From positions 62,001 through 126,000 of the forward strand of contig CANNDL010000005.1 of the NCBI GenBank assembly GCA_947503435.1: a stretch of 64,000 nucleotides of DNA, read 5' to 3'. Source of the DNA: an uncultured Kangiella sp. (GTDB lineage: Bacteria; Pseudomonadota; Gammaproteobacteria; Enterobacterales; Kangiellaceae). This document shows, piece by piece, positions 17,701 through 22,491 of the stretch. A program made the position numbers and the translations under genes. The notes under the pieces were generated by a model. The model searched no databases, was not told where the DNA came from, and was given only the letters and a program-made list of their open reading frames with translations. Numbering within the stretch: the first letter of the stretch is position 1; each line of letters opens with the position of its first letter.

Positions 17701-18630
17701 TTAAAATTGCATTTGAAACCATGATTGCTGTTCTATCTTTAGCTTTTTTACCTTTCTTTTAACGTAGTAATCTTCAGCAATAAAACTCGGCGCTTCATAA
17801 ATCTTTTTAAAACCAAATTTTCTAGGTAATTTAGTATATAAAGATTTAGGAGGCCTACCACAATCCAGTTCTTTTAATTTACAACCAGTCTCAAAGTCAT
17901 AGTAAAAAATATTTTTCACGCCTATTTTCTTAACTAAAAACTCCAAACTTGCTGTTAATATAGCCTCATCCCATAACTTCTTATAGCTATACATTGATTC
18001 AACATAAGCCTTAAACTGCTCTTTGTAAGGTTTAATTCCATACCTTTCATAATCACAAACATCATCAAGCTTTTGCAAATATTTATAGGTTGAATCCACT
18101 TCCCTTAACCAATCAGTTTGCACTTCTTCAATCAAGGCTTCTGAAAAGTCATCGCTAATATCTATTCGGGACCATGCTAAAGTATTTCGACTACCCTTAT
18201 GAACTGGATGCATTCCATATGCAAAAGGATCGTATTCTGTATCTGCAACCTTTTCAAAAACCCTATCATGTGATTTTGAGAAATTTAATTGCAATACAAG
18301 GTTATACCCTTTTCTGCAAGTTTGTTGCCAGCTAGGGCAATCACCGCCCCATTCATCTAAACTTAAAGAAAAATGTTCCATTTCTGTAGACCATAATTCT
18401 TGTAACCGGATGCTATCGATATATTTATTACCAATATTAGATAACCATTCTCTGATTACTGGCTTAGTACATAATTGAGATAAATGGCTTTGTTTTAATT
18501 CACTGATAGTTTTACCTTCGCCAATAAACTGTTCTAATAAAAACATGCAGTATTTATCTTTAAAGTAGTGAAAAACCATTCTCTCTTCTTTAAAGCAGGC
18601 TAATACCTCCTTTAATAACTTGTGCTCCAT
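17701..18630 (-). CDS. Unknown protein with EVQTDW motif, next to rtcB
   Basis: This 309-residue soluble protein has no assigned function that I recognise. It contains AWSRIDISDDFSEALIEEVQTDWLREVD (about 160-187) and a C-terminal PKSLYTKLPRKFGFKKIYEAPSF. Both resemble the E-[IV]-Q-S-D-W and L-Y-x-K-x-P...K-x-G pieces of domains found in large phage polyvalent proteins. This one is a stand-alone chromosomal copy. The ribosome site AAGGAA lies 6 bases before the ATG. It follows rtcB by 98 bases and precedes the small basic protein gene by 12, suggesting an RNA-repair-linked unit. That link is inference. Confidence 0.75.
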   Translation of the reverse strand: MEHKLLKEVLACFKEERMVFHYFKDKYCMFLLEQFIGEGKTISELKQSHLSQLCTKPVIREWLSNIGNKYIDSIRLQELWSTEMEHFSLSLDEWGGDCPSWQQTCRKGYNLVLQLNFSKSHDRVFEKVADTEYDPFAYGMHPVHKGSRNTLAWSRIDISDDFSEALIEEVQTDWLREVDSTYKYLQKLDDVCDYERYGIKPYKEQFKAYVESMYSYKKLWDEAILTASLEFLVKKIGVKNIFYYDFETGCKLKELDCGRPPKSLYTKLPRKFGFKKIYEAPSFIAEDYYVKRKVKKLKIEQQSWFQMQF

Positions 18631-18715: not shown

Positions 18716-18735
18716 GGGTTAACTTTCGCTAACCC
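18716..18735 (-). terminator. Hairpin overlapping the rtcB stop, weak terminator or mRNA stabiliser
   Basis: The eight-bp stem GGGTTAGC/GTTAACCC has a GAAA tetraloop, and the TAG stop of rtcB lies inside it. Only a short A/T-rich tract follows, so read-through to the gene at 17701 is likely. Confidence 0.45.
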
Positions 18736-19925
18736 TTTACACAAACGACTTGTTTTAAAGTATGTACTACTTCAACCAAGTCCTGTTGGTTATCCATAAC
18801 CACATCAATGTCCTTATAAGCCGCAGGGATTTCATCAATCACTCGACTATCCTTACGACATTCAACGCCTTTGGTTTGTAACTCCAAGTCTGAACGTTTA
18901 AACAGCTTTTTGGCCGCCGTACGACTTAAAGTTCGACCTGCACCATGTGAACATGAACAAAAAGACTGTGGATTACCTTTTCCACGAACAATAAATGACT
19001 TGGCGCCCATTGAGCCCGGAATAATCCCCAAATCGCCTTCACGCGCACGAATCGCACCTTTACGGGTTAAGTAAACGTTCTCGCCAAAGTGATTCTCCAT
19101 CTCCACATAGTTATGGTGACAGTTAATCGCTTCTTTGGTCACGCTAAATTCTGGCAGATGCTCAGTAAGTGCTTCTAATACCAAAGCCATCATTTTCTGA
19201 CGGTTTTTATAGGCATAGTCTTGCCCCCATTTCACAGCAAACCAATAATCATCGAAAGACTCTGTGCCCTCGCTTAAATAAGCCAAATCTTTATCCGGCA
19301 AATTAATATGGTGCGTTTGCATCTCTTTCTTTGCCAATTGAATAAAGTATTGACCAATTTGATTACCAATTCCGCGCGATCCTGAATGCAGCATCACCCA
19401 GACGTCATTATTTTCATCTAGGCATAATTCTATAAAATGGTTTCCTCCACCAAGGGTACCCATTTGAATAATTGGCGTTTTATGCGGTGCTTTCATACGC
19501 TTAATAATCGCAGGATGTTTCGCAATAATTTTATCCAAGCCGTCCATCAATGGCCGAGAATACTTATCGTCAAAACCAGTCCACTTATGCGCAGCAAACC
19601 CAACCGGAACTTTATCCTCAATCGCCAACCGAATAGGCTTTAAGTTATCCGGTAATTGATAAGCTTTTAGCGATAAACGTACCGCGTTCATACCACAACC
19701 AATATCCACACCAACTGCAGCAGGAATAATCGCGTTCTTAGTTGGGATCACCGACCCAACCGTTGCACCTTTACCCAAATGCACATCTGGCATTGCTGCT
19801 ATATGCGAATGTATGAATGGCAAATGCGATATATTTTCCAACTGTTGTATTGCTTTTGGATCAATATCATCGGTATAAACTTTTACTGGCACTTTGCCTT
19901 TTTTAAAAACTCTTTGAATAGGCAT
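18729..19925 (-). CDS. rtcB: RNA-splicing ligase RtcB
   Basis: This 398-residue GTP-dependent ligase joins RNA 2',3'-cyclic phosphate or 3'-phosphate ends to 5'-OH ends and repairs cleaved tRNA or rRNA. Manganese ligands are in place: AAVGVDIGCGMN with D74 and C77, GGGNHFIEL, and HSGSRGIGNQIG. The guanylylated histidine is in CSCSHGAGR (about residue 327). Length matches the family (E. coli 408). No rtcA or rtcR gene is adjacent. Instead, the transcript begins at a strong promoter 340 bases upstream and passes through a leader with a terminator (20071-20106). Confidence 0.97.
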   Translation of the reverse strand: MPIQRVFKKGKVPVKVYTDDIDPKAIQQLENISHLPFIHSHIAAMPDVHLGKGATVGSVIPTKNAIIPAAVGVDIGCGMNAVRLSLKAYQLPDNLKPIRLAIEDKVPVGFAAHKWTGFDDKYSRPLMDGLDKIIAKHPAIIKRMKAPHKTPIIQMGTLGGGNHFIELCLDENNDVWVMLHSGSRGIGNQIGQYFIQLAKKEMQTHHINLPDKDLAYLSEGTESFDDYWFAVKWGQDYAYKNRQKMMALVLEALTEHLPEFSVTKEAINCHHNYVEMENHFGENVYLTRKGAIRAREGDLGIIPGSMGAKSFIVRGKGNPQSFCSCSHGAGRTLSRTAAKKLFKRSDLELQTKGVECRKDSRVIDEIPAAYKDIDVVMDNQQDLVEVVHTLKQVVCVKG

Positions 19926-20070
19926 AATTTTCTACCTTTATTTCCTATATTCGTCAGTATCACTACTGTCTTAAACTAATTAGCCAAATAACTAAATAGC
20001 TCTCCTTATCCCATGCCACTTGATCACCTTAGCTGCATAAATTACGAATAACCTATACATACAGGCATAA

Positions 20071-20106
20071 AAAAACCCTTAGACTCTTTCGAGGCCAAGG
20101 GTTTTT
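20071..20106 (-). terminator. Intrinsic terminator in the rtcB leader
   Basis: An outer stem (AAAAACCCTT / AAGGGTTTTT) is extended by GGCCTC / GAGTCT pairing around a GAAA tetraloop. A run of seven T follows on the minus strand. It lies 146 bases upstream of rtcB. It could end the upstream leader RNA constitutively or act as the terminator of an attenuator, because its CCTCGA arm can also pair with TCGAGG just upstream. Confidence 0.88.
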
Positions 20107-20118
20107 AGGATTCTTGGC

Positions 20119-20140
20119 TCGAGATAATAATTACCTCGAG
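20119..20140 (-). promoter_or_regulatory. Leader hairpin competing with the terminator
   Basis: The minus-strand RNA forms GCTCGAG / CTCGAGC around a GTAATTATTAT loop. Its TCGAGGT arm can instead pair with ACCTCG at the end of the 13-codon ORF, or with CCTCGA in the terminator. These are three mutually exclusive folds, as in classical attenuators. Pairing potential is read directly from the sequence; use in regulation is inference. Confidence 0.5.
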
Positions 20141-20164
20141 CGCAAACAATAAGGTGCCCGAGGT

Positions 20165-20206
20165 TTAGCTTTGTTCTAAACTCCAATCATAATTTACTGG
20201 TTTCAT
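20165..20206 (-). CDS. 13-codon leader ORF upstream of rtcB
   Basis: The short ORF MKPVNYDWSLEQS has a textbook ribosome site (GGAGG, 6 bases before ATG). It starts about 55 bases after a predicted transcription start. Its stop codon lies just before ACCTCG, which can pair with the next hairpin. A stem GAGTTTAG/CTAAACCTC forms inside its 3' half, so ribosome position would decide the folding. It has no run of one amino acid, unlike biosynthetic leader peptides. It may instead respond to stalling at a particular tRNA, to a bound ligand, or be a genuine microprotein. Confidence 0.45.
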   Translation of the reverse strand: MKPVNYDWSLEQS

Positions 20207-20237
20207 CGGGAACCTCCAAAATTCGTTCGTAATATTT

Positions 20238-20257
20238 AGTTAGCACTATTGCTAACT
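20238..20257 (-). promoter_or_regulatory. 5'-end hairpin of the rtcB leader transcript
   Basis: A perfect inverted repeat AGTTAGCA / TGCTAACT with a four-base loop begins about 4-5 bases after the predicted transcription start. It could protect the RNA 5' end or serve as an operator for a dimeric repressor. Confidence 0.55.
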
Positions 20258-20266
20258 TGGCTGACG

Positions 20267-20294
20267 ATTATAGTGATTAATTTTTAAACTGCAA
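20267..20294 (-). promoter_or_regulatory. Sigma70 promoter for the rtcB leader
   Basis: TTGCAG and a perfect TATAAT are separated by 16 bases, with a start predicted near 20261. It lies between slyX and the leader ORF, so the leader and rtcB form a transcription unit independent of the rdgC-slyX genes. Confidence 0.8.
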
Positions 20295-20311
20295 ATTTTA
20301 TTTATTACATT

Positions 20312-20539
20312 TTAAAAATGTGGCGGTAATTCATCCGCAGGGTTAAATCCCTTATTTGGCATTTGGGATTCCATATCCTGGAGCTTTTCGCCCAGTAGAA
20401 CAAATCGCTGTTCCATTTTTCTGATAAGTGAATCTTGCTTGGTTATAACTTTATTTAACTGTTCGATTGTATCTTCTTGAAAGGCTACTTGAGTTTGTAG
20501 GTCTTCAAGTTGTTGCTCGATTAGTTTTATCTTATCCAT
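20312..20539 (-). CDS. slyX: SlyX family protein
   Basis: This 75-residue protein is an almost continuous coiled coil (heptads through about residue 60). It ends in the SlyX signature PADELPPHF. The function of SlyX is unsettled; the gene is often near FKBP isomerase genes, and one (fklB) is 3 kb away here. The ATG at 20539 is preferred to the preceding TTG. It starts 12 bases after ychJ and is the last gene of the rdgC strand. Confidence 0.93.
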   Translation of the reverse strand: MDKIKLIEQQLEDLQTQVAFQEDTIEQLNKVITKQDSLIRKMEQRFVLLGEKLQDMESQMPNKGFNPADELPPHF

Positions 20540-20551
20540 CAATATTTCTCA

Positions 20552-21025
20552 CTATTTTAAATGGCATTTCTTTGCTTTTAAGCCGCTTTGACAGGGGCAA
20601 GGATCATTACGTGAAATTTTATCTATTGTTTTAGGCTGGTATTTGCCATCGGTATAAAACCATTGTTCCTTATCAAGGATAAAATTAGAAATTTCATGTA
20701 AACAATGTAATTTACCCTTTTCCAAAAAGTAAGCTTTGAAATTTACTTTACCAGAAACATTGTCATATTTTGATTCTAAAACTTCGAGCCGGCACCAATC
20801 TGTTAATTGGGCGCTTTGCTGATAATCATCTAAAGTTCCATTCCTGAATTCTGGATGATGCGTATCAAAGATATACTGTCCTAACCTTAATTCAAAAGCA
20901 CTATATCGAGAACGCATCAATAATTCTGGGCTTTGCGCTTTTACCTTTCCAATATGTAGTGGCTCACAACATTCCGTATATAACTTGCTGATATCGGCCA
21001 GTTTATCTTGGCAAGGACAGATCAT
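20552..21025 (-). CDS. ychJ: YchJ family SEC-C protein
   Basis: This 157-residue protein of the UPF0225 group has Cys-rich motifs at both ends. The N-terminus is MICPCQDKLADISKLYTECCEPLH, and the C-terminus is the SEC-C zinc motif RNDPCPCQSGLKAKKCH. The central RSRYSAFELRLGQYIFDTHHPE block is diagnostic. Function is unknown. The frame opens at a TTG overlapping the upstream stop; the ATG at 21025 gives the usual family start. It is in one operon with the 486-residue gene upstream. Confidence 0.92.
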   Translation of the reverse strand: MICPCQDKLADISKLYTECCEPLHIGKVKAQSPELLMRSRYSAFELRLGQYIFDTHHPEFRNGTLDDYQQSAQLTDWCRLEVLESKYDNVSGKVNFKAYFLEKGKLHCLHEISNFILDKEQWFYTDGKYQPKTIDKISRNDPCPCQSGLKAKKCHLK

Positions 21026-21030
21026 TAAAC

Positions 21031-22491
21031 TCAACTTTCACTCTGCGGTAGCTCACAATAGCCGAACATACACTTATCTTTAATTTCGTTGCGAATGGCT
21101 TCTGGCAACTGCTTTTCCCATTCGCCTTGTCCGAGTGGAATTTCTTCTGCAATATTTTTTGCGGATATATGTAAGTTTTCATCATTCCAAGTTTCTGTGG
21201 CAACCAATAGCTTATTGTCTTTTAAGTGTTGCAATAAATAATGAGTATTCTCAGAAACCTTTACGTTATCAAGCGTTATCAAACCGCCATTAATACGTGT
21301 TGGGTATACATAAACATTGGTATTGCCTGAGAACAATTTACCCATGGCCTCTAAAATCCCACCTTCTAAGCCTTCGTAATATTTTTCATTAAATAACTGA
21401 TCAAAATCTAAAATACTTAAAACAATACCAATTCGATTTTGGGTATAACGACGCATCCATGAGCGCAGACGGAAAAAACGTAAGTAATCCGAAATTAATA
21501 CGTTGTAGCCAAGCTTATTCAATAAATCGACCCGAGCTAAGAAACTCGCATCACTTTCATCGCCATCCGTCGCTAACTCAGCCATGGTAATTTCTGCAAC
21601 AGTACATACCTTTTCAGGATTAATCCCATCTTCTTTTAAGAACTGCTGCATAGCAGCTTCGGTCATATCCACATGAACTTTTGTGGGCGGTTTAAAGGAA
21701 CCTCGTATAACCATAACGTCCTTTTTACGTAATAAGCTACCAGGAACTTCTGAGTCACCCTGCTCGCCAAACATAACCGCACGACAACACCAAGAACGAA
21801 CTAGGTGTAAGTTCATTAGGCGATTTTCAACTTCAGAAAATTTATTTCCCGTAAAGTGAATTAGATCCACTTCCATTCGTTTTTGGCCAAAGCCATCAAC
21901 CAAGTTATCCAACAACGACTCAATAAAAACTTTTGGATTATCTGCATAATGAAATGCACCATAAACCACGTTAACACCGAATATACCCAGTGCTTCTGAT
22001 TGCTCACGATTAGTATCATCAAGCATCCTAACGTGCATAATGATTTCGCTAGCTTCCGATCCTGCTTCAGGCTGCAACTTAATGCCTATCCAGCCGTGAC
22101 ATTCATTTTTTTGCGAATAACTTCTGGCAGTAACCGTAGCCGCATAACTAAAGTATTGAGTACCTTCGGAACGAACTTCACCTAACCGTTTATGTAATAG
22201 TTCATACTCATGACTTAGCATTTGCTCCAAGCGCTCACGACTTACATAACGGCCTGCTTTACCATAAATATCGTCACTAACTTGCATGTCGTATGCTGAC
22301 ATGGTCTTAGCCACGGTTCCTGCTGCTGCACCGGCGGCGAAAAATTGACGAGCAACTTCTTGCCCAGCACCAATTTCAACTAAAGTGCCGTATTGATTTT
22401 TGTTAAGGTTAACCGCTAGAGCTTTTTGCTCTGTACTTAAACTCTTATCATGGATAACTTGGTCGTTGGTCTGGTTGTTTATGTCGCTCAC
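21031..22491 (-). CDS. Conserved protein of unknown function (about 480-residue family)
   Basis: This 486-residue soluble protein belongs to a widespread family recognised by YGTLVEIGAGQEVARQFFAAGAAAGTVAKTMSAYDM near 33-68 and GIFGVNVVYGAF near 168-180. From memory, homologues are often labelled TonB-dependent receptor or nicotinate-nucleotide adenylyltransferase. Neither fits, since there is no barrel, plug, signal peptide or HxGH nucleotidyltransferase motif that I can see. The start is GTG. It lies 19 bases downstream of rdgC and overlaps the ychJ frame, suggesting a shared operon. Confidence 0.85.
   Translation of the reverse strand: MSDINNQTNDQVIHDKSLSTEQKALAVNLNKNQYGTLVEIGAGQEVARQFFAAGAAAGTVAKTMSAYDMQVSDDIYGKAGRYVSRERLEQMLSHEYELLHKRLGEVRSEGTQYFSYAATVTARSYSQKNECHGWIGIKLQPEAGSEASEIIMHVRMLDDTNREQSEALGIFGVNVVYGAFHYADNPKVFIESLLDNLVDGFGQKRMEVDLIHFTGNKFSEVENRLMNLHLVRSWCCRAVMFGEQGDSEVPGSLLRKKDVMVIRGSFKPPTKVHVDMTEAAMQQFLKEDGINPEKVCTVAEITMAELATDGDESDASFLARVDLLNKLGYNVLISDYLRFFRLRSWMRRYTQNRIGIVLSILDFDQLFNEKYYEGLEGGILEAMGKLFSGNTNVYVYPTRINGGLITLDNVKVSENTHYLLQHLKDNKLLVATETWNDENLHISAKNIAEEIPLGQGEWEKQLPEAIRNEIKDKCMFGYCELPQSES

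Follow-up and report, generated by a model that had tools for sequence, protein, structure and literature searches.

We asked how the RNA ligase RtcB might be induced in a bacterium that shows no sign of its known regulator. RtcR, acting with sigma54, induces RtcB upon damage to tRNA (PMC7790460), and for bacteria that lack RtcR the literature that we searched offered no explanation of RtcB induction. The window, a 64,000-nucleotide stretch of a contig from an uncultured Kangiella sp., carries rtcB on its minus strand. An earlier note on this DNA had stated that RtcR and sigma54 play no visible part here, and our searches bear this out: RtcR was found in 0 of 20 Kangiella genomes by a search that was positive in an E. 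coli control, and the sigma54 -24/-12 promoter had no match with up to three mismatches at 19841-21102, around the rtcB start. The note had proposed instead that the progress of a ribosome along a short leader ORF decides whether transcription terminates ahead of rtcB. Comparative and folding evidence supports this proposal, and we put the probability at about 85% that the rtcB leader, with its six segments A to F, is a his-type attenuator of transcription under ribosome control.

The promoter, 5' hairpin, GGAGG, 13-codon ORF and terminator that had been described for the leader were all found in place on the minus strand (Table 1). A promoter tool placed the same site one base away, matching the consensus at 10 of 12 positions. 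Since promoter-like sites were no commoner in the region than in shuffled sequence (9 compared with 9.6), the call of the leader promoter depends on the fact that both relatives carrying the leader conserve it. The leader as a whole folded at -67 kcal/mol compared with -40.2 kcal/mol in shuffles (z = -6.55), and 0 of 200 shuffles were as stable. The arms of the intrinsic terminator (20106-20091 and 20086-20071) lie about 146 bases ahead of rtcB; this terminator was found by the fold, detector and pairing analyses, while a simple terminator scan did not list it. Rfam gave no match to the window leader at gathering score. Elsewhere in the window, a c-di-GMP-I riboswitch was observed at 220-303 on the minus strand (71.8 bits).

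Table 1. Features of the rtcB leader and of the genes behind it, in window coordinates
Feature	Position	Strand	Basis or remark
Sigma70-type promoter TTGCAG-16-TATAAT	20267..20294	-	Sequence; -35 at 20294-20289, 16-nt spacer, -10 at 20272-20267; kept in both relatives, DNA upstream of it differing
5' hairpin of leader transcript	20238..20257	-	8-bp arms 20257-20250 / 20245-20238, 4-nt loop
Ribosome binding site GGAGG (20217-20213) and segment A, GGUUCCCGA	20206..20217	-	A lies between SD and start codon; able to pair with B
Leader ORF, 13 codons, MKPVNYDWSLEQS, and stop	20165..20206	-	Sequence, conservation, detector
Segment B, ACCUCGGGC	20156..20164	-	Directly behind stop codon; pairs with C in early-stall fold
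Segment C, GCUCGAGGUAAU (also written GCUCGAGGU)	20130..20141	-	Pairs with B or D
Segment D	20113..20128	-	Partner of C, or of E as antiterminator
Segment E, terminator 5' arm	20089..20106	-	Alternative partner of D
Segment F, terminator 3' arm and U-run	20069..20086	-	Sequence, pairing list
Untranslated spacer, terminator to rtcB	19926..20068	-	No promoter-like site listed
rtcB, 398-aa RNA ligase, RtcB family	18729..19925	-	Family models
309-aa conserved gene after rtcB	17701..18630	-	No family or PDB match

The segments can pair in alternative ways. The pairing of ACCTCG with CGAGGT that the earlier note had read is present and extends to the 9-bp B:C helix, in which ACCTCGGGC (20164-20156) pairs with GCTCGAGGT (20141-20133). 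The C:D hairpin has arms at 20141-20130 and 20128-20117 (11-12 bp). As letters, the note's third pairing (TCGAGG with CCTCGA) is there, but it joins the wrong partners: the stronger antiterminator is the D:E helix of UCGAGCCAAG (20122-20113) with CUUGGCCUCGA (20099-20089), with 10 bp and one bulge, which is present in the early-stall fold. The A:B helix of the window was no better than in shuffles (p = 0.59).

On this arrangement, a ribosome that finishes the 13-codon ORF would cover B, leaving C to pair with D and E with F, so that the terminator would form and rtcB would be off. A ribosome stalled early in the ORF would leave B free to pair with C; D would then be free to pair with E, the terminator would be pre-empted, and RNA polymerase would continue into rtcB and perhaps into the next gene too. 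An RNA-repair enzyme would thus be made when decoding fails. Such an early stall might be caused by a cut or uncharged tRNA or by a damaged or drugged ribosome. In an untranslated transcript A could pair with B; the prediction for this state is an intermediate outcome.

Within the genus, rtcB is present in 3 of the 20 genomes, and the full-length leader occurs in the same three, each time directly upstream of rtcB; the other genomes gave only short matches of 16-29 bases. The leaders of the two relatives are 88% identical to that of the window, and both the ORF and the stems, whose conservation the note had proposed to check, are kept in them. The gene adjoining the leader differs among the three genomes: in the window it is a gene on the same strand that we take to be SlyX-like, in one relative it is a 429-codon ORF that comes after the SlyX-like gene, and in the other it is a 184-codon ORF running in the opposite direction. 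The leader and rtcB therefore look like a unit that starts at the -35 box. The leader peptide is MKPVNYDWSLEQS in the window and MKQFNYDWSLEQS in both relatives, between which a Gln codon varies synonymously. In the 5' hairpin a double change from A-T to T-A in both relatives preserves the stem, and the loop between B and C varies in letters and length among the three leaders. Segments B to F are identical in all three, so that no covariation is seen in them within Kangiella. The -35 region (AAATTTGCAGTT...) also matches two loci from two other families of the order (L004, 1501-1538, and L005, 1501-1536); neither resembles the leader, and these matches may be due either to chance or to a shared promoter element.

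Whether this architecture extends beyond Kangiella was assessed at rtcB loci gathered by an RtcB protein search, which gave 42 loci with named records, and from further genomes. The detector called an SD and start codon, an ORF of 5-35 codons and a strong intrinsic terminator 25-130 nt downstream of it and no more than 230 nt from rtcB. Outside the 161 loci scored were six with less than 150 nt of upstream DNA, loci L001-L038 except L006 (same-genome repeats or weak BLAST matches) and L205-L207. A leader was detected at 58 of the 161 loci, a terminator alone at 19 and neither at 84, while the detector gave 0 hits in 483 dinucleotide shuffles, on 161 reverse strands and at 275 other ORFs of the same loci (here ORFs of at least 150 codons, not annotated genes). 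Because the detector was written after many of the loci had been viewed, the 58 of 161 was not counted blind; the three controls were run at the same thresholds. The positives include near-identical species, so that they are not 58 independent events. Those of the present leader class fall in seven families (codes f1, f49, f83, f91, f121, f142 and f211) and in Moraxellaceae; in one order 28 of the 30 loci fetched were positive, or 29 when a GTG start was allowed. By computation, then, the parts of the leader co-occur with rtcB, and the same architecture is found in many families, Acinetobacter included. Between groups the letters of the segments differ and similar pairings recur, with not all four in every locus. 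The terminator ended no more than 50 nt from the called rtcB start at 31 of the 58 loci, which therefore leave little room for a promoter behind it; at 14 loci the true rtcB start may lie further on, since the terminator abuts the called start there.

No recognisable leader was seen at 22 of the 24 Psychrobacter loci with enough upstream DNA; two Psychrobacter loci (L048 and L051) and a near relative (L169) have a 26-30 codon ORF and a common hairpin upstream of rtcB. In a FastTree-only RtcB tree, which carries a long-branch warning and was used only to show clustering, the RtcR-type clade, named for the annotated rtcR beside L204, held 3 leaders in 34 rows. These three (L171, L172 and L174) belong to a different class, in which an ORF of 28 codons and a terminator precede rtcB; they were omitted from the peptide statistics and are possibly an independent attenuator. 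No leader was found at the plasmid-borne rtcB genes of Thiodictyon, Methylomonas and Allochromatium or at three rtcB loci on phage contigs. Upstream of rtcB at another locus (L074), inspection by eye showed an apparent tRNA gene end followed by decayed tRNA-like sequence.

The dependence of the fold on ribosome position was examined by masking ribosome footprints, cutting the transcript before segment F and scoring how far the E arm was sequestered. Fifty-one of the 58 leaders were folded (all but L048, L051, L169, L171, L172, L174 and L203), and shuffle statistics were computed on 38 representatives, one per peptide cluster. In the window, sequestration of the E arm was 0.00 for a ribosome at the stop codon, 0.60 for one stalled early and 0.40 when no ribosome was present, and the difference between early stall and stop was reached by 4 of 100 shuffled spacers (p = 0.04). 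The representatives gave means of 0.14 at the stop, 0.67 with an early stall and 0.28 without a ribosome, compared with 0.39, 0.46 and 0.37, respectively, for shuffled spacers. The early-minus-stop difference was thus 0.53 compared with 0.07 in shuffles, and 0 of 100 shuffle sets reached it (largest set mean, 0.18). Taken singly, 21 of the 38 representatives were at p <= 0.05; five had no state difference (L045, L145, L153, L163 and L170) and four more were under 0.3, and the A. baumannii leader had a state difference of 0.50 with p = 0.17. An antiterminator that depends on ribosome position is therefore found by computation. When full-length transcripts were folded at equilibrium, the terminator formed in nearly every state, and antitermination must therefore be kinetic.

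Two further comparisons concern the helices themselves. Pairing between the stretch ahead of the start codon and sequence past the stop codon scored a mean of 16.6 in the 38 representatives compared with 13.3 in shuffles (largest shuffle-set mean, 14.6) and was singly at p <= 0.05 in 11 of them; L168, with 14 bp, is one of these and the window leader is not. The B:C and D:E pairs were kept at every column in 13-14 of 14 leaders of one order, these 14 having been chosen for a common pattern among the 30 positive loci of that order.

The RtcB of the window falls below the cut-offs of PRK09588 (172.7 compared with 407 bits) and TIGR03073 (135.8 compared with 271.8 bits), the models for PrfH-linked RtcB2/ArmZ, and is 29% identical to E. 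coli RtcB2. A protein of about 310 residues is encoded behind rtcB not only in the window but in 11 other loci (L041, L043, L044, L047, L081, L085, L086, L094, L111, L112 and L134); these 11 homologues are 32-43% identical to the window copy and share the invariant motifs LVLQLN and LIEE.Q.D. The protein had no significant match in Pfam, PHROGs or the PDB, and the window copy had none in NCBIfam. It lacks GGQ and no release-factor domain was found in it, so that it is no release factor; it is a possible operon partner of rtcB or partner of RtcB. At five loci (L133-L137) the rtcB frame is 544-726 codons long and database matches begin near residue 65; NCBIfam includes intein-containing RtcB families, and these frames possibly hold inteins.

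One of the positive leaders coincides with a catalogued RNA. The rtcB leader of A. baumannii (L199) has the ORF MPTLQGKTQ and a terminator at 37-59 nt from rtcB. A full-length match to the Rfam family AbsR28 (RF02606; 219.6 bits, cut-off 50) encloses this leader; the model extends about 16 nt beyond the terminator U-run, and an Acinetobacter sp. leader (L045) also matches it (60.4 bits). When 14 leader loci other than the window were compared with Rfam, only these two Acinetobacter ones gave a gathering-score match. Like the window leader, AbsR28 covers the region before rtcB, here with a 9-codon ORF, a pre-start region that pairs behind the stop codon, then a hairpin and a terminator; the Kangiella leader differs in having no Rfam match to RF02606, and AbsR28 is filed in Rfam as an sRNA gene. 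AbsR28 was reported as an RNA of about 180 nt by northern blot and RACE, nearly equal across the growth phases tested; it is flanked by a lysine permease and a hypothetical gene, and strain AB0057 conserves it at 99% (PMC3976366). It was also detected by RNA-seq (PMC5320573). For A. baylyi ADP1, one study used the Rfam model and reported a homologue of AbsR28 (PMC11426457), while a BLAST search in another had given none (PMC3976366). The hypothetical gene would be rtcB, since the order at locus L203 is permease, leader, rtcB. Our literature search found no paper naming both AbsR28 and RtcB.

Under tigecycline, in a study that uses AB57 locus tags, rtcB and the gene behind it were the most induced, 252-fold, a rise about which the authors speculate (PMC7652931), and half-MIC minocycline raised rtcB 2.6-fold in ATCC 19606 (PMC9741440); another rtcB, linked to RtcR, lies on an A. 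baumannii plasmid, and the drug-induced rtcB may be either copy. An RtcB-family gene was lower, at 0.40, in an A. baumannii mutant for a tRNA methyltransferase (PMC10653896), the opposite of what a sensor of tRNA defects might suggest. Attenuation predicts a pattern in which the short transcript is steady and the gene past its terminator is strongly inducible.

This last point bears on the possibility that the leader is a stand-alone, trans-acting small RNA whose end merely happens to fall ahead of rtcB, a role that others have proposed for AbsR28. Such a reading could draw on the separate transcript of about 180 nt (PMC3976366) and on the report that AbsR28 represses a type VI secretion system, in which it is treated as trans-acting (PMC11796373; the words rtcB, leader and terminator are absent from the main text). 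However, a strong SD, a closed ORF and a switchable terminator recur ahead of rtcB in families that are unrelated and in sequences that are unrelated too, whereas a trans-acting sRNA would be expected to keep its seed in preference to its location ahead of rtcB. We regard this reading as quite improbable, although both roles could coexist. Still less credible, in our judgement, is that the leader consists of the ordinary terminator of the upstream gene and a chance ORF, with rtcB served by its own promoter in the 146-nt spacer. The SlyX-like gene does lie upstream on the same strand, and parts of the spacer are conserved among Kangiella species, but the conserved unit starts at the leader's own -35 box, behind neighbours that change from genome to genome and in one relative are reversed. 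The signature was absent from the 275 other ORFs, and the short distance from terminator to rtcB elsewhere also argues against it. The note had named a separate rtcB promoter as a finding that would speak against attenuation; no promoter-like minus-strand site was listed at 20070-19926, where a promoter of another type could go unrecognised.

The attenuator might alternatively be codon-specific, sensing cleavage of the tRNAs with GUN (queuosine) anticodons for Asn, Tyr, His and Asp, which are the targets of colicin E5 (PMC9223846). The window ORF has NYD at codons 5-7, and at least one NAY codon occurs in 34 of the 38 representative ORFs. The earlier note had seen no amino-acid run in the window peptide, and this is true of the other leader peptides as well: in the 38 representatives the ORF is 8-14 codons long, or 31 in a single case, and none holds a run. 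In 3000 simulations that kept the position-specific base make-up of these representatives, Asn (15.9% compared with 10.7% expected) was matched in 0, Phe in 2 and Gln in 9, while Ser (49) and Gly (72) were raised less clearly. The NAY group as a whole was not enriched (24.8% compared with 23.6%, 502 of 3000), nor were His, Tyr and Asp, and the A. baumannii peptide contains no NAY codon at all. The simulations thus reject a NAY or queuosine-codon trigger as a general rule, and we consider the codon-specific reading unlikely. Since Asn, Phe and Gln are raised but the NAY group is not, no single tRNA explains the leader family, for which a sensor of stalling in general is the better fit.

Taken together, we infer that the leader acts as an attenuator in Kangiella and that its natural trigger would be damage to tRNA or to the ribosome. 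Such an attenuator would tie an RNA-repair enzyme directly to ribosome stalling and offers a concrete answer to how RtcB might be induced where RtcR is absent. For the wider family, we lean towards the view that in at least eight gammaproteobacterial families a mini-ORF attenuator on RtcB senses general decoding failure rather than one amino acid, that the ribosome binding site pairs behind the stop codon in a good part of them, and that AbsR28 is one such attenuator and not primarily a trans-acting sRNA. If true, this would re-read AbsR28 and offer a mechanism for the rise of rtcB under tigecycline, explaining why it is the gene most raised by that drug in Acinetobacter. Literature searches found no paper joining rtcB, transcription attenuation and tRNA, and for rtcB with attenuation and leader peptide found only a MexXY review. 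Attenuation itself is known; what would be new here is a general stall-sensing attenuator on RtcB that is spread over many families.

Several known systems can be set beside the window leader. In his leaders, six segments pair as A:B, C:D and E:F against B:C and D:E. The match of the window to the his leader model (RF00514) is weak and sub-threshold (21.9 bits compared with a cut-off of 49, E 0.24), and the his leader differs in its run of control codons, which the window leader lacks, and in its target gene. RtcR with sigma54 controls rtcBA by activation, whereas the window leader would act by transcription termination. Upstream of E. coli rtcB2-prfH (L206, 381-428) we observed a strong SD and a 15-codon ORF, MTNPLSMTLCRPFQD; the SD and 15-codon ORF persist in K-12 as well, ahead of the ykfJ-prfH remnant. 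This upstream region folds better than shuffles (z -3.3), and no standard terminator was seen in it by eye.

The closest known system is PA5471.1-armZ of P. aeruginosa, which like the window has a 13-codon leader ORF and a terminator upstream of an RtcB-like gene, PA5471.1 being compared here by its description and not by its DNA. In the PA5471.1 leader, ribosome stalling has been proposed to prevent the terminator, the promoter is constitutive and ribosome-targeting drugs induce (PMC12057347, PMC3516279). Loss of Cca, the enzyme that repairs tRNA ends, raises armZ via this leader (PMC13041342), so that damage to tRNA is a plausible trigger. The known role of ArmZ is to relieve a repressor of an efflux operon; the protein belongs to PRK09588 (PMC3516279) and lies beside a release-factor gene, whereas the window RtcB is of another clade and has no release factor behind it. 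Together with PA5471.1-armZ, the rtcB leaders described here suggest that leader-peptide control is common for RtcB enzymes, in two separate clades.
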